Shown here: positions 24,315 to 34,110 of the stretch, piece by piece
How the letters are laid out: each line of letters begins with the position of its first letter
How positions within the stretch are numbered: the stretch's first letter is position 1
Origin: Synergistaceae bacterium
GTDB taxonomy: Bacteria > Synergistota > Synergistia > Synergistales > Aminobacteriaceae
DNA: 64,000 nucleotides
Direction: 5' to 3'
Assembly: GCA_017445405.1 (NCBI GenBank)
Contig: JAFSUD010000076.1
Span: 1 to 64,000, forward strand
Position numbers and translations under genes: made by a program
The notes under the pieces: model-generated
Database searches by the model: none
What the model saw: only the letters and a program-made list of their open reading frames with translations
Told to the model about the DNA's origin: nothing

Positions 24315-24408
24315 GTGATTGAATCTCCTTCGTGTGTGAATGCAGGTATTATAGCAGTGAAGATATTTGCAGGAATAAGCCGGGCAGTAAATCCCGGCAC
24401 GTGAATTG

Positions 24409-24987
24409 TCAGTCTATTATCTTGCTGCGTCCTTCGTGTAATGGCTTGGGTGATGGCTCTCTGCCGTCAAGGTAGCCCAGCAGCACAAAGCATCTCGCAA
24501 TATACCCTTCCGGAATCTCCCAGTCCCTCAGAAATTTTCTGCCGTCGGGATTGTCGAACGTCTCCTCACCACGCGCAACTATGCATGACGCAAGCCCGAG
24601 TGAATGAGCCTCGAGAATCATGTTCTCAGCACAGCAGAAAGCATCCGCAACACTGTACAGGAAATCTTCCGGCCCGAAGATTACGCACACGCTCGGCGCA
24701 CCATAGAACCCGCTCTTGATGTTAGGGTCGTCAATGATGCTCGGCTGCTCCTCAGACACATAGTTCCCCAGAAGTGCCGACCTGTCGAACTGCGCAATGT
24801 TCAGCTTCCCGAGCTGTTCCGTCAACTTTGCGTTATGCACTCCGACAATGATGCTTCCCTGCCTTCCTCCGGCGTTCGGTGCTCTGAGTCCTGCCTCTAT
24901 AACCTTATCCATATCCTCACGCGTAATCTGTCTCGCCTGATACTTCCTGATTGAGTGCCTCGTCCTGATGATGTCTAACAGCTCCAT
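24409..24987 (-). CDS. Nitroreductase-family FMN oxidoreductase in the CGG-repeat peptide operon
   Basis: 192 residues. ATG at 24987 has AGGAGGTG seven bases upstream; the longer frame runs into the upstream gene. The family start IIRTRHSIRKYQARQITREDMDKVIEAGLRAPNAGG gives the FMN-phosphate Arg-His-Ser-x-Arg, and AENMILEAHSLGLASC is the dimer and FMN loop of nitroreductases. It begins two bases after the stop of the radical SAM gene, strict translational coupling. In RiPP clusters such enzymes oxidise azolines to azoles or reduce dehydro residues; here a tailoring role on the Cys-Gly-Gly peptide is inferred only from position. Confidence 0.85.
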   Translation of the reverse strand: MELLDIIRTRHSIRKYQARQITREDMDKVIEAGLRAPNAGGRQGSIIVGVHNAKLTEQLGKLNIAQFDRSALLGNYVSEEQPSIIDDPNIKSGFYGAPSVCVIFGPEDFLYSVADAFCCAENMILEAHSLGLASCIVARGEETFDNPDGRKFLRDWEIPEGYIARCFVLLGYLDGREPSPKPLHEGRSKIID

Positions 24988-24989
24988 GT

Positions 24990-26018
24990 TTACACCTCCT
25001 TCCAGCATTGAGGATCTTGCGCGTAAAAATCTCCGTACGTTCCCTTCGCGACTGCAGGGCATCCCCGGCAATACGGCAGCAGCTCACACCTTGAGCACTT
25101 CATGAACTTGCTGTACTCCCTGTAACTCTCCATTTCGCCGAGCCACAGGTCAGAGAGTTTGTCATGTAACGCATTGCCGACTCTGCTGTCTCTGACTCTC
25201 CTGCACGCGTAAACGTCTCCTGAGGGTAATATCGTCAGGTGAGCATTCCCGCAGTTACACCCGCCGTAAATCCTGCCCTGTTCTGCGTCACTGGGTATTA
25301 CGAACCTTCCGGCCTCGTAGTCGTAGAGAGTCCACAAGTGGTCTTTGCTGTCAAAGTATGTTTTGCAGCCCTGCGATTCGTAGTGCCTGAACTTCTCATC
25401 ACACACGGCCAAGAACTCACGGTAACGTTCCGGAGTAATATTATTGTTTCCTGAATCAGGGCAGTATCTTGCGAACGAGTACACTTCCGCTTCAGCCTCA
25501 ACAGCAGCATCTATCACTTTTGGAATCTCGTCTATGTTCGTGCCTGACACAGTGGACATTATCACCGAACATATACCCGCCTTATTGATGGCGCGTATCG
25601 CATTCAGGGTTGCATCGAATGAGCCGGGCTTCCTGAAGTAGTCGTGAGTCTTTCTCAGGCCGTCAAGCGAGACTTGATACTTCTCACAGCCGAGAGCCTT
25701 TAGCCTCGCGCATACGTCATCATCAATGTGAAAAGGGTTGCCCAGAATCGAGAAGCCTATTCCGTGTGAGCTGAACGTCTCCAGCAACGGCCAGAACTCG
25801 GGGTGAAGGATTGGGTCGCCTCCCGTGATGTAGAAGTGCGGAGTGCGTCCGAATGTGCTGCAGAAGTCGAGGCAGTTCACGAACACTCGGTGAATGTCCT
25901 CACGAGTCATGCTTTCAGGAATATGTGTATTGCCTCCGGAATAGATGTAGCAGTGCTTGCACCGCTGGTCGCATTCATCTGTGATGTGCCACTGGAACGA
26001 GAAATAGCGCATATGCAT
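24990..26018 (-). CDS. Radical SAM/SPASM peptide-modifying enzyme (ACGX-type)
   Basis: 342 residues. Cys16-x3-Cys20-x2-Cys23 (CDQRCKHC) binds the radical-SAM cluster; YITGGDPILHPEFW is the GGE-like AdoMet motif (here GGD), followed by a TIM-barrel. The C-terminal SPASM region has CNCGN, YACRR and the cluster MKCSRCELLPYCRGCPA, enough cysteines for auxiliary Fe-S clusters. Such SPASM proteins mature Cys-rich peptides (sactipeptide or ranthipeptide chemistry). The gene starts 46 bases after a peptide gene with repeated Cys-Gly-Gly, so that peptide is the likely substrate. An internal ATG two codons on is also possible. Confidence 0.85.
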   Translation of the reverse strand: MHMRYFSFQWHITDECDQRCKHCYIYSGGNTHIPESMTREDIHRVFVNCLDFCSTFGRTPHFYITGGDPILHPEFWPLLETFSSHGIGFSILGNPFHIDDDVCARLKALGCEKYQVSLDGLRKTHDYFRKPGSFDATLNAIRAINKAGICSVIMSTVSGTNIDEIPKVIDAAVEAEAEVYSFARYCPDSGNNNITPERYREFLAVCDEKFRHYESQGCKTYFDSKDHLWTLYDYEAGRFVIPSDAEQGRIYGGCNCGNAHLTILPSGDVYACRRVRDSRVGNALHDKLSDLWLGEMESYREYSKFMKCSRCELLPYCRGCPAVAKGTYGDFYAQDPQCWKEV

Positions 26019-26025
26019 AAATATA

Positions 26026-26047
26026 CCCCGCCGAAGAACCAGCAGGG
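26026..26047 (-). terminator. Hairpin between precursor peptide and maturase genes
   Basis: An 8-bp stem (CCCTGCTG/CGGCGGGG with G-T pairs, 6-base loop) sits between the peptide stop and the maturase start, just before the maturase ribosome site. No T-run follows, so it may be an attenuator, or an mRNA end-stabiliser raising precursor over enzyme. Confidence 0.4.
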
Positions 26048-26064
26048 CATTGTGTCAGTGATTG

Positions 26065-26205
26065 CTACTTCTTGCCGCCGCACGCTGAAGGTTTGCTGCC
26101 TCCGCATGAGACTGACGAGTCCTTTTTGCCTCCGCATGATGAAGGCTTGCTGCCTCCGCATGATGATGCATTGCTACCCCAGTCCGCTAAGTCTTTCAGT
26201 GCCAT
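26065..26205 (-). CDS. Cys-Gly-Gly repeat peptide, candidate RiPP precursor (ACGX-repeat type)
   Basis: 46 residues from ATG with CAGGAGG nine bases upstream. A short leader (MALKDLADWGSNA) precedes four Cys-Gly-Gly units at Cys 16, 24, 34 and 42, each after Ser or Ala and each followed by Ser-Lys-Pro or Lys-Lys. No signal peptide. The repeat (S/A)-C-G-G matches the ACGX-repeat peptide idea used for NCBI families that pair with SPASM enzymes; I recall this and cannot check it here. It is the first gene of peptide, SPASM enzyme, nitroreductase. It lies 101 bases from the HxlR regulator start, on the opposite strand. Confidence 0.8.
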   Translation of the reverse strand: MALKDLADWGSNASSCGGSKPSSCGGKKDSSVSCGGSKPSACGGKK

Positions 26206-26306
26206 GATTATTGCCTCCTGTAAAAAGTTTGCTGTTCATGATAGCGATAATCTTTCCTTCTCACAAGTACGCACCTATTTGTTACCGCATGTATAATTCA
26301 AGCATT

Positions 26307-26645
26307 ATGATTCATAAACACGAATTACCAGAATGTCCCGCAGCTACAGCAATACAGTTAATCGGCAGCAAATGGAAGCTGTTAATTATCCGCTGCCTTC
26401 TTCAGCGTCCTCACAGGTTCAGTGAACTCAAGCGTGCTCTGGAGGGCATAAGCCATAAAGTCTTGGCCGAGTCCCTGCGCTCAATGGAGGCTGACGGACT
26501 CATCACCCGCAAAGTCTATGAATCAGCTCCGCCTCTTGCCGTCGAGTACTCACTAAGCGAACTCGGCATGACGTTAAAGCCTCTGCTCTCAGCTATGGAG
26601 GACTGGGGAAAGTTCTACAAGGGACTGCTCGCTTCTCAAATGTAA
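26307..26645 (+). CDS. HxlR-family winged-helix regulator
   Basis: 112 residues from ATG at 26307; the frame extends upstream but the extra residues are not HxlR-like. ECPAATAIQLIGSKWKLLIIRCLLQRPHRFSELKRALEGISHKVLAESLRSMEADGLI is the HxlR winged helix; Cys10 in the Glu-Cys-Pro motif is at the redox-sensing position of HypR/YodB-type members. Divergent from the CGG-peptide operon across a ~100-base AT-rich gap, so it is the obvious candidate for its control, perhaps responding to thiol stress. Start codon lacks a strong ribosome site. Confidence 0.8.
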   Translation: MIHKHELPECPAATAIQLIGSKWKLLIIRCLLQRPHRFSELKRALEGISHKVLAESLRSMEADGLITRKVYESAPPLAVEYSLSELGMTLKPLLSAMEDWGKFYKGLLASQM

Positions 26646-28258: not shown

Positions 28259-28931
28259 GAGAACGAATATTTTTGTTGCAGGGACTGGCACGGACATAGG
28301 CAAAACGTACATTGCGGGGCTTATCCTGAAAAAGTTTCTTCGTGCCGGGATAAACGCTGCATACTTCAAGGCTGCAATGAGCGGGAACATAAGGGATGCT
28401 TTCACCAATGCTCCAGTGCCCGGAGATGCCGTGTTCGTGAAGAAGGTATCGGGTTCAAGCCAGCCGTTGAGCGAGATGTGCCCGTATGTCTATGAGGCTG
28501 CTTACTCTCCGCACCTAGCTGCAAGACTCGAGGGGAATCCTGTAGATTTTGATGTTGTGCTCAGGAAGTTTGACGAGCTTTCTGGAAAATATGACTGCGT
28601 GATTATGGAAGGATCAGGAGGGATTCTGTGCCCGATAAGACTCGACAGCAAAACTATATGGCTCGAGCACTTCATCAAGGCCAGAAACTTGGACTGCATC
28701 CTAGTGGCTGATGCAGGACTCGGGACGATTAACGCCGTCGGTCTCACAGCACACTACATGATGGCCAAGAACATAGCCCTCACAGGAATAATCCTGAATC
28801 ACTTTCAGGCGGGAAACGTCATGCACGAGGATAACCTCAAAGTCTGCGAATCCATCACGGGAGCGAATGTCATTGCTTGCGTCAGAGACAACGACGAAGA
28901 GATCAATTTTGCCGGAGGTATCACGTTATGA
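28251..28931 (+). CDS. bioD: Dethiobiotin synthetase
   Basis: 226 residues from ATG at 28251 (a GTG one codon earlier is also open), overlapping the bioB end. FVAGTGTDIGKTYIAGL is the P-loop of BioD; GSGGILCPI and VADAGLGTINAVGLTAHYM complete the active site. Converts DAPA, CO2 and ATP to dethiobiotin. Its last ~33 codons are duplicated just downstream, and its stop overlaps the ATG of a chimeric mini-frame. Confidence 0.93.
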   Translation: MIKRTNIFVAGTGTDIGKTYIAGLILKKFLRAGINAAYFKAAMSGNIRDAFTNAPVPGDAVFVKKVSGSSQPLSEMCPYVYEAAYSPHLAARLEGNPVDFDVVLRKFDELSGKYDCVIMEGSGGILCPIRLDSKTIWLEHFIKARNLDCILVADAGLGTINAVGLTAHYMMAKNIALTGIILNHFQAGNVMHEDNLKVCESITGANVIACVRDNDEEINFAGGITL

Positions 28932-29238
28932 TCTGGTATCCGTACACGCAGATGAAGAACATGAAGACTCCTTACGAGATAGTGAAGGCAGAGGGAGTTT
29001 ATCTCTGCACGAAGGATAAGAAGCTGATTGACGATGACAGCCTCAAGGTCTGCGAGGCCATCACGGGCTTGAAGGTCATTGCCTGCGTAAGGGATAACGA
29101 CGAGGAGATCAATTTTGCCGGAGGTATCACGTTATGATCTGGTATCCATACACGCAGATGAAGAATATGAAGACTCCCTACCAGATAGTAAAGGCAGAGG
29201 GAGTTTATCTCTACACGAAGGATAAGAAGCTGATTGAC
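28833..29238 (+). repeat. Tandem duplication (offset 206 bp) across the bioD/bioA junction
   Basis: Two ~200-base copies, 28833-29032 and 29039-29238, each holding the last ~33 codons of bioD, the ATGA overlap and the first 35 codons of bioA. They are clearly homologous but differ at many third positions and several amino acids, so the event is old, or one copy came from a different strain. Confidence 0.85.
28928..29137 (+). pseudogene. Chimeric BioA-BioD mini-frame
   Basis: 69 codons: the first 35 (MIWYPYTQMKNMKTPYEIVK through KKLID) match the BioA N-terminus, the next 34 (Asp-Ser-Leu-Lys-Val-Cys... to GGITL) match the BioD C-terminus. It keeps ATGA overlaps with bioD upstream and bioA downstream, so it would be translated between them. 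The fusion cannot be an active enzyme; it is a by-product of the duplication, possibly keeping translational coupling alive. Confidence 0.8.
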
Positions 29239-31602: not shown

Positions 31603-34110
31603 ATGAACGTGGGCAATAACAACACCATAAACATGGTCTATAATGCCCTGACCGCCACGAATAAAGCCATCGAGAAAACTGCCCGCGCCCTCTCAACAGG
31701 ACAGAGGACAGCGAGCGCATCCGATAACGCGGCAGGAATGGCAATAGGCATGAATATATCAGCGCAAGTAGCCGGAGTAGACCGTGCAATCCGCAACACA
31801 CAGGACGGAATATCACTTTTACAGACAGCAGAGGGCGGACTAGATCAGATAAACTCTATGCTTCAGAGAATGCGCGATCTCTCAGTTCAGGCAGCTAATG
31901 ACACCCTCACATCTCAGGACAGAAGCTATATCCAGAACGAGATAGACGAACTCCGCAAGAACATCGACAACGTAGCATCAAACACGACGTTCAACAGCAA
32001 GCGTTTGCTCGACGGCAGCTCGTCAGCTTACTGGACTTCCGACGACCTGAGCACAAAGCTCAAAGTTTCAGGAGCACTCACACGCATAGACCAGTTCGGG
32101 CAGACTCAGCGTGTCGAGGGAAATTACCGCATCGAGATCCGCGCAAAGGCAGGGCAGGGAGAAGTCCAGAAGTCAGGAATATTCACTCTCAGCAAGACTC
32201 AGCCCGTGAAGGACGCGAGCACCTACGACTACGAGATCGACATCAATAACGGCATCGACACATTGACCGGCGGGGCTTCCGGCTCAGGCTGGCAGTTCGC
32301 TGACGGAGTACTGACGATAACCGGCGCAGGGAAATACAGCATCATCGGCGACGGCACAGAGACAGATAACCGCATAGTGATTCGCGAGGGCATAGACGCA
32401 CAGGTCAAGCTCAAAGACGTAAACATCTCTTCAGGAACAGACAGCGCGTTTCAGATAACCGGCTCAAACGTCAAAGTGTTTCTTGAGGGCGAAAATGTAC
32501 TTGAGGGAGGAGAGGCAGGTCTCGAGGTCAGAAACTCCCTTGACGGCGGACGCAAAGCATCTCTCGAGATTAACAGCATCGAAGGACTCGGCTCTGAAGA
32601 AGGCACGCTCACAGCAACAGGCTCGGGGAACGGTGCAGGCATTGGCGGAGCTAGCGGCGAATACACCACAGGCGCAATCACCATCAACGGCGGAACGATT
32701 ATTGCGACAGGAGGAGGCTCTGCTGCGGGCATCGGCGGAGGAGGTTCGTCGGAAAACGGCTCGCACGCAAACATCACCATCAACGGCGGAAACATCACGG
32801 CAACAGGCGGAGGAGCAGGTATCGGGAGCGGTCTTGACGGTCCGGAAGATGACTCCAGCGTCGACAGAATCATTATCGCCGGAGGAAAGATTACGGCAAC
32901 AGGAGGAGACGGCTCGGCAGCAATCGGAGGAGGTGAAGGCTCGAACAGCGGCCTCATCAGGATAGATCACTCTGCAGAACTTCACCTTAGCGGCTGGGTT
33001 GATGAGGAGAACGGAGAGACTGACCCCATCGGCAGAGGCGAGGGAGGCGCAAAGACAGGGAGCGGCTCTTCTGCACTCTTCAACGATGTAGCCTACACCG
33101 GCAAGACTAATCCTACTCTAGAGGACATTCCGGAGTTCTATACAGCGAGCGGAGTGTTCATAGTTGAGAATCCCCAGAAGCTGACCATCACTCAGGGCAA
33201 CGGCAAAACCGCAGAAATCACTCTCTATTCTCAGGACACTATCGAGGATGTCCGCAAGAAGCTCAATGACGCAATAGCCTTTGACTTGGGGCAGTCAACG
33301 TACACCGACAACATCGACCAGTTCGTCAGCTTCGTGAATTACGGCGAGAATGACTCTCAGGGACTCGAGTCTGTTGCGGGAACGTTCGTGATTCGTTCTG
33401 TTGTTGCAGGGAACGCAGGAAAGCTGACGATTGCGTCTGACAATCACGACCTGATGCAGGCTTTCGGCCTCAATACTATTCAGGAGGCAACAGAAAACGT
33501 CTTCACCGGCTCAGTCTATGAAGCTCACACAGGGAGAGCGATTGCTACGAACGTTGAGGCTCAGGGAAATTCCTTCACTGGACTCATCAGCGATAATGCA
33601 ACGATAGAGTTCGACACTATGGCCGGAGTCAGTGCCCGCTGGGATGCAAGCACTAAACGCTACGTTCTGAGCGGAAGCGATATACCTTACACGACGACTC
33701 TTCACATTGCTGACAGGAGCACATCATTTCAGGTAGGGCAGAGTCAGGGAGAAGATATATACCTGAACATCGGAGACATGAGGTCGGAGTCGCTGGGGCT
33801 TAACCGAGTCGATGTGTCTACGCGTGAGAATGCTGCGAAATCTATTACTACGCTTGATGCAGCGATTCATCAGGTCGGCAAGCAGAGAAGCAAGATAGGC
33901 GCGTACCAGAACGAGCTGGAGTACAATGCGAACAGCCTTACGCAGACGAGCCTACACATGCAGGAATCGGAGTCCCGGATAAATGATGCTGACATGGCGA
34001 AGGAGTACATGGAGTTCGTGAAGCTGCAGATACTCAGCCAGACCGGAACGTCTATGCTCACGCAGTCGCAGCAGAGTGCGCAGTCCTTGATGAATATTCT
34101 TGCGCAATAA
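31603..34110 (+). CDS. Large flagellin with glycine-rich beta-solenoid-like central domain
   Basis: 835 residues, ATG with AGGAGG upstream, about twice normal flagellin length. Residues ~1-135 are the D0/D1 helices (NNTINMVYNALTATNKAIEK, LSTGQRTASASDNAAGMAIG); the C-terminal ~100 close the rod (ENAAKSITTLDAAI, QSAQSLMNILAQ). Between them lies a large insert: a linker, then at ~330-480 several turns reading GGTIIATGGGSAAGIGGG and GGNITATGGGAGIGSG, which suggest a right-handed beta-solenoid; then a flagellin-IN-type segment (KLTITQGNGKTAEITLYSQDTIEDVR). The insert would be surface-exposed along the filament and could bind a glycan or mucin. No glycosidase or protease motif was seen. Confidence 0.9.
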   Translation: MNVGNNNTINMVYNALTATNKAIEKTARALSTGQRTASASDNAAGMAIGMNISAQVAGVDRAIRNTQDGISLLQTAEGGLDQINSMLQRMRDLSVQAANDTLTSQDRSYIQNEIDELRKNIDNVASNTTFNSKRLLDGSSSAYWTSDDLSTKLKVSGALTRIDQFGQTQRVEGNYRIEIRAKAGQGEVQKSGIFTLSKTQPVKDASTYDYEIDINNGIDTLTGGASGSGWQFADGVLTITGAGKYSIIGDGTETDNRIVIREGIDAQVKLKDVNISSGTDSAFQITGSNVKVFLEGENVLEGGEAGLEVRNSLDGGRKASLEINSIEGLGSEEGTLTATGSGNGAGIGGASGEYTTGAITINGGTIIATGGGSAAGIGGGGSSENGSHANITINGGNITATGGGAGIGSGLDGPEDDSSVDRIIIAGGKITATGGDGSAAIGGGEGSNSGLIRIDHSAELHLSGWVDEENGETDPIGRGEGGAKTGSGSSALFNDVAYTGKTNPTLEDIPEFYTASGVFIVENPQKLTITQGNGKTAEITLYSQDTIEDVRKKLNDAIAFDLGQSTYTDNIDQFVSFVNYGENDSQGLESVAGTFVIRSVVAGNAGKLTIASDNHDLMQAFGLNTIQEATENVFTGSVYEAHTGRAIATNVEAQGNSFTGLISDNATIEFDTMAGVSARWDASTKRYVLSGSDIPYTTTLHIADRSTSFQVGQSQGEDIYLNIGDMRSESLGLNRVDVSTRENAAKSITTLDAAIHQVGKQRSKIGAYQNELEYNANSLTQTSLHMQESESRINDADMAKEYMEFVKLQILSQTGTSMLTQSQQSAQSLMNILAQ

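Follow-up and report, generated by a model that had tools for sequence, protein, structure and literature searches.

The 64,000-nt stretch of DNA analysed here (the window) carries a three-gene operon for a short Cys-Gly-Gly repeat peptide, a SPASM radical SAM enzyme of the rSAM_ACGX family (TIGR04340) and a nitroreductase-family flavoprotein, which faces a divergent HypR-like regulator across an operator-like element conserved in two phyla. Since the enzyme belongs to TIGR04340, the locus is of a kind already catalogued, the ACGX system. We read it, tentatively and as a whole, as an intracellular ACGX-type RiPP cassette under thiol-stress control, in which the cysteines of the peptide would be oxidised enzymatically to give a stress-protective product. 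Some Cys-directed modification of the peptide is very probable. A role of the cassette in oxidative or electrophile stress is likely, because the regulator is of a stress type, the associated NAD(P)H reductases are exchangeable and SirTM/Zn-Macro genes are neighbours of the cassette in relatives; the intracellular redox role suggested in the preliminary description of this DNA is thus favoured by both regulator and neighbours.

Locus layout and precursor peptide

The span 24409-26205 holds precisely the three genes of the operon, all on the minus strand of the window, and stops short of further parts of the system, namely the divergent regulator and the conserved promoter/operator at 26280-26238 (Table 1). 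The preliminary description of the peptide/SPASM/nitroreductase layout was borne out in its coordinates, the four repeat units, the ribosome site and the two-base gap; its three-gene operon stands, but it had missed the HypR-like regulator, the operator and the SirTM/Zn-Macro association of relatives. Between the stop codon of the radical SAM gene and the ATG of the nitroreductase at 24987 stand only the two bases AC, and an AGGAGG sits within the 3' end of the radical SAM gene. As had been described, no transporter, other export gene or protease gene was found in the peptide/radical SAM/nitroreductase operon. Elsewhere in the window lie a biotin operon (bioB 27287, bioD 28248, bioA 29134), with a short frame at 28867-29137 that joins the bioA start to the bioD end much as a tandem duplication of the bioD/bioA junction would leave it, and, on the plus strand at 31603-34110, a gene for a flagellin-like protein of 835 aa, the middle of which holds a long, repetitive, Gly-rich insert.

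Table 1. Features of the ACGX locus, in positions of the window.
Feature	Position	Strand	Evidence
Precursor peptide, 46 aa	26065..26205	-	Homologous peptide 5' of the enzyme in 90 loci
SPASM radical SAM enzyme rSAM_ACGX (TIGR04340), 342 aa	24990..26018	-	547 bits; Pfam Radical_SAM and SPASM
Nitroreductase-family flavoprotein, 192 aa	24409..24987	-	PF00881, 80.5 bits; nearest solved structures are nitroreductases
Divergent DUF24/HxlR regulator, HypR (YybR)-like	~26304..26645	+	PF01638, 99.5 bits; start codon provisional
Operator-like element AAATAGGTGCGTACTTG, overlapping the -35 region	26264..26280	-	Kept in 62/90 loci
Promoter-like site TTGTGA-N17-TATCAT of the peptide operon	26238..26266	-	9/12 matches; alone not above chance
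Terminator-like hairpin directly 3' of the nitroreductase	24379..24398	-	Alone not above chance

The window peptide, MALKDLADWGSNASSCGGSKPSSCGGKKDSSVSCGGSKPSACGGKK, runs from an ATG at 26205 to a TAG stop codon ending at 26065, behind the strong ribosome site ACAGGAGG, and is composed of the leader MALKDLADW, four (S/A)CGG units and a C-terminal KK. Its Cys codons are all TGC, and no in-frame TGA for selenocysteine is present in it. Among short frames of up to 80 codons, one with at least four CGG was found in the real window and none in 100 simulated windows; a chance open frame was ruled out by this simulation together with the conservation at the protein level.

Of 102 loci, 90 have ahead of the enzyme a readable peptide with a MALxxLxxW leader and repeated Cys-Gly units, which agrees with the RiPP-type precursor and SPASM maturase originally proposed. 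Two observations had been named beforehand as speaking against that proposal, a SPASM gene without the peptide in relatives and a frame unconserved at the amino-acid level; what we found is that the enzyme is hardly ever without the peptide and that the leader codons have a pN/pS of 0.14 in the window's genus, where the CGG codons vary synonymously. The leader is thus under purifying selection. In the 90 peptides, which carry two to fifteen Cys each, the cysteines (547 in all) stand before Gly in 98% and after Ala or Ser in 97% of cases, the cores are nearly free of hydrophobic and aromatic residues, and Lys stands at the end of most.

Absence of the peptide in relatives was considered and rejected, as the 12 of 102 loci with no readable peptide were inspected and nearly all were explained. 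Contig ends cut L082, L084, L085 and L092, and L057 is truncated; the leader is frameshifted or replaced while the core is intact in L087 and L108; the peptide region is masked by N in L149 and partly so in L078; and L058-L060, which are a paralogous subfamily, have a precursor of the Nif11 type instead of the ACGX peptide. L090 alone among the 12 exceptions has kept its leader and has no core. In this locus (Mediterraneibacter glycyrrhizinilyticus An427) the ACGX leader MALSNLFGWRKKADAEP runs into a frame with no CGx unit and the enzyme is intact, the core being either lost or a repeat collapsed in assembly. The paralogues L058 (in G077) and L059-L060 (in G046), ACGX enzymes of the window's genus that are 43-49% identical and occur paired or single, adjoin a 296-aa protein and Nif11-type precursors with a GG motif and short variable cores, e.g., GGDCSCPTCGIEPWDW; L058 is also accompanied by a HlyD-like protein and a peptidase-containing ABC exporter. 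These paralogues are a separate exported RiPP system on the same enzyme lineage.

The catalogued precursor model, TIGR04341 (target_ACGX), gave no match to the window peptide at E<1 and its cut-off was passed by a peptide in none of the 43 genomes of the window's genus, whereas a Bacillota peptide scored 119 bits; the precursor of the genus is therefore of a divergent, SCGG type. The window peptide is short (46 aa, 4 Cys) and has SCGG/ACGG in place of ACG(A/S/T), i.e., Gly rather than Ala, Ser or Thr at position +2. In other respects the window follows the ACGX system: its enzyme is over the cut-off, the upstream peptide has the same MALxxLxxW leader and Cys-Gly repeats, and the divergent DUF24 regulator and operator-like element are shared with Bacillota members, but its operon is without PNPOx-ferredoxin, Zn-Macro and SirTM genes.

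Maturase, regulator and exchangeable reductase

The search of peptide and enzyme against family models that had been suggested at the outset thus held for the enzyme and failed for the peptide; the guess of TIGR04340 was exact, with 547.1 bits in the profile search against a cut-off of 400. The window enzyme has the RS motif CDQRCKHC and all SPASM cysteines, and in 95 enzymes the RS and SPASM cysteines are invariant, as are Cys 49, 111, 206 and 254. The closest other family is SbtM, the thio(seleno)oxazole maturase of Geobacter (TIGR04082), at 167.2 bits versus 107 for the next, and the SbtM model had the best E-value after TIGR04340 in all 17 members scanned. Cys is the target in both, but the window enzyme scores far under the SbtM cut-off of 350 and is without the first ~195 residues of the SbtM model, and the window peptide has no selenocysteine codon. 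SbtM removes four H from Cys to give a thiooxazole (PMC11002830). Because SbtM is the closest other family and takes four H from Cys, a mass shift of -4 Da per Cys would be expected here, and by this analogy it fits better than -2 or -20 Da. That the exact product is a thiooxazole in the (S/A)-Cys-Gly units, at -4 Da per Cys, we regard as possible and somewhat short of probable. No biochemistry was found in the literature for any TIGR04340 enzyme, and searches for ACGX, for TIGR04340 and for SirTM together with radical SAM yielded no paper on the system.

The regulator has both the HxlR-type HTH (PF01638) and an N-terminal redox Cys. Its best PDB match was 4a5m, YybR (HypR) of B. subtilis, with residues 10-111 of the query on 13-113 of the chain, and the N-terminal Cys aligned to HypR Cys14 and is conserved in 81 of 81 relatives. 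HypR, YodB and CatR sense HOCl, quinones and diamide via the N-terminal Cys, and some of them control flavin reductases (PMC6943732). The window therefore resembles HypR-HypO and the related DUF24 redox regulons of Bacillus subtilis in a regulator closest to HypR with the sensing Cys kept and a flavin reductase probably under its control, but its regulon would additionally make a RiPP and its operator-like sequence is its own.

The AAAAAAGTGCGTACTTG element is common to the ACGX loci of Synergistota and Bacillota; as GGTtAYAAAAAAGTGCGTACTTG it overlaps the -35 region, ~70-140 bases upstream of the peptide, and the promoter spacing and the -10 are conserved beside it in relatives. Its 13-base core was found with at most 2 mismatches in 62 of 90 loci from two phyla (~0.003 expected per locus), and the window element at 26280-26264 is the sole match within 2 mismatches in the window genome. 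We infer that the element is the operator of the regulator. A wider regulon including the SirTM pair of the genus was examined and rejected, with no match near the SirTM loci and few matches genome-wide. One-mismatch copies of the element off the ACGX locus were seen in two Lachnospiraceae genomes (G188:C12:229123 and G190:C40:199079), where they may mark further regulon genes.

Of 88 loci, 63 have a nitroreductase 3' of the enzyme and 20 have an MDR-family protein that is most similar to quinone oxidoreductases; one of the two is present in 83 of the 88 and both in none (hypergeometric p ~2e-15, the loci not being independent). That the two replace each other points to a reductase role common to both and speaks against an oxidase that tailors the peptide; the nitroreductase is therefore unlikely to be a dedicated tailoring enzyme.

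In the mechanism that we propose, the HypR-like DUF24 regulator would sense thiol or electrophile stress via its N-terminal Cys and would control one promoter through the operator-like element, and we infer the direction of this regulation as well. A short soluble peptide would be made, whose MALxxLxxW leader is probably a recognition tag because the enzyme is without a separate recognition domain. In each (S/A)-Cys-Gly unit the TIGR04340 enzyme would abstract H from the Cys and oxidise this residue, most likely to an SbtM-like 5-thiooxazole. The outcome would be a row of unusual thiol(ate) groups in the cytosol, which could scavenge electrophiles or oxidants or bind metal ions. The nitroreductase, or elsewhere the quinone-oxidoreductase-like enzyme, would serve in the same stress response by electrophile detoxification or peptide reduction. 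Since the operon has no exporter or protease and the peptide is short, charged and hydrophilic, a cytosolic product is most likely.

Distribution and the SirTM/Zn-Macro neighbourhood

The enzyme was above the TIGR04340 cut-off in 23 of 188 Synergistota genomes, and a scan of GTDB representatives gave more than 563 relatives, the best 80 of which were mostly from Lachnospiraceae, Oscillospiraceae and other Clostridia. Only these best 80 of >563 were kept from the scan, so that the counts lean toward close relatives, and some loci are near-duplicates; a few MAG titles among them (Brocadia, Bacteroides, Succinivibrio) may be binning errors. In a quick enzyme tree the window falls in a clade of its own genus together with the same-family genome G089 (locus L040), and the Synergistaceae genome G039 (L048) falls inside Bacillota, so that a transfer between phyla probably took place at least once.

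The class M sirtuin SirTM and the Zn-macrodomain protein Zn-Macro, an ADP-ribosylation pair, both adjoin the cassette in 33 of 61 non-Synergistota loci, mainly of Bacillota, and a PNPOx-like protein with two [4Fe-4S] ferredoxin clusters stands beside it in 43 of 63 mainly Bacillota loci. The identity of the two is supported by PDB matches to SirTM (5a3a) and to protein-ADP-ribose hydrolase (5kiv/8rsl), and by the class M motif TQG, present in 41 of 42 sirtuins. SirTM and Zn-Macro are absent beside the window cassette, which in the window's genus stands alone with its own regulator; such a pair lies on a different contig of the window genome, and the co-occurrence of ACGX and SirTM in the genus was not significant (p = 0.07). 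In a sample of 150 Lachnospiraceae genomes, which are not independent, SirTM was found in 19 of 22 ACGX genomes versus 55 of 128 others (p = 1.5e-4), within 6 kb of ACGX in 12 of the 22.

GcvH-L is the only known SirTM target, and targets outside the lipoyl operon are a stated open question (PMC11490716). GcvH is missing from 18 of the 19 sampled Lachnospiraceae genomes that have both ACGX and SirTM, and in genomes of this kind ACGX peptides are locally encoded candidate targets. They are not a general SirTM target, because 45 of the 74 SirTM genomes in the same sample have neither ACGX nor GcvH, and a universal role was thereby ruled out. PNPOx-ferredoxin paralogues accompany SirTM in several genomes that lack ACGX and GcvH and are therefore an equal or better candidate target. 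A distant paralogue of this protein adjoins SirTM in ACGX-less Lachnospiraceae (e.g., G213:C30, G200:C56 and G311:C56), so that SirTM, Zn-Macro and PNPOx-ferredoxin may be a separate unit.

These observations bear on a reading in which the conserved association is with the SirTM/Zn-Macro/PNPOx-ferredoxin module, with PNPOx-ferredoxin or another protein as the target of ADP-ribosylation, and ACGX merely belongs to the same stress response. The paralogues beside SirTM and the 45 genomes just mentioned speak for it, but it leaves the ACGX cassette itself unexplained, and in the window's genus the cassette occurs alone with its regulator; we consider it doubtful, though worth keeping in view.

Comparison with the SirTM/Zn-Macro extended operon of staphylococci and streptococci (GcvH-L/LplA2/OYE/LLM) shows that ACGX relatives likewise group a class M sirtuin and Zn-Macro with oxidoreductases, with the ACGX peptide and maturase in the place of GcvH-L/LplA2, whereas the pair is not in the window operon. 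In L040 of G089, from the same family as the window, SirTM, Zn-Macro and PNPOx-ferredoxin are divergent from the cassette, and GcvH and LplA are there too, as a pair beside SirTM. An operon at 10312-12647 of L040 encodes GcvH, a ligase resembling LplA and a small radical SAM protein; it is convergent with SirTM and is possibly a lipoyl branch of the same stress module. A more far-reaching idea, quite improbable at present, is that the mature ACGX peptide would be a ribosomal redox- or electrophile-scavenging carrier that replaces lipoylated GcvH-L in the SirTM/Zn-Macro system; SirTM would ADP-ribosylate the peptide or a protein handling it and so switch it off, Zn-Macro would remove the mark under stress, and the NAD(P)H reductases would recharge the carrier.

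Alternative products and wider meaning

Apart from the thiol-stress cassette proposed above, the product might serve metal buffering, with thiooxazole thiolates chelating copper or another soft metal in the cell as an anaerobe radical SAM counterpart of the MNIO-made bufferins and captophorins. In MNIO-made peptides, EGKCG repeats carry 5-thiooxazoles and bind copper (PMC12668002), which keeps this reading alive. The x-Cys-Gly repeats of ACGX peptides resemble these Cu-binding repeats, with two to fifteen Cys per peptide and no export genes, and intracellular use is plausible for the multi-Cys-Gly repeat peptide of the window as for bufferins and captophorins. The window, however, has a radical SAM maturase and no MNIO (DUF692) among its four genes, its regulator differs and is of the DUF24 thiol-stress type rather than a metal sensor, and no recurrent metal transporter, chaperone or metalloregulator was identified among the neighbours, so metal buffering appears unlikely.

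It also seems improbable that the enzyme makes thioether cross-links as in sactipeptides or ranthipeptides; the peptide would then be compact and cyclised and might act as an antimicrobial or a signal. Many characterised SPASM peptide maturases do make thioethers, and the solved folds nearest to the structural model of the enzyme were SuiB, SkfB and anSME; these represent the generic SPASM fold, which does not distinguish thioether from thiooxazole. Against this, the sacti- and ranthipeptide maturase models scored far under their cut-offs (StsB 69.5/625, SkfB 58/300 and PapB 57.1/340 bits), the cores lack the hydrophobic residues usual in sacti- and ranthipeptides, and the conserved cassette has no exporter, protease or immunity gene. 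As for the nitroreductase as a SagB/McbC-like oxidase of azolines to azoles, which would leave ordinary thiazoles on the peptide, flavin azoline oxidases are nitroreductase-fold proteins and the gene is translationally coupled to the maturase, but in 20 of 88 loci an enzyme of the unrelated MDR family takes its place, the two never occurring together, and no YcaO cyclodehydratase is among the conserved neighbours identified, which makes this reading very improbable.

ACGX cassettes are common, with >563 relatives in one scan, the best 80 of them mostly from gut Clostridia, and no study of their product was found in the literature. What is new here is a thiol sensor resembling HypR, together with a defined operator-like site, an exchangeable reductase and a frequent co-location with SirTM/Zn-Macro, and this context turns an unknown RiPP into a specific hypothesis of stress physiology. 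It bears on the question of SirTM substrates beyond the lipoyl operon (PMC11490716), and the enzyme, if it makes thiooxazoles, would be an anaerobe radical SAM route to the MNIO chemistry of copper-binding peptides.
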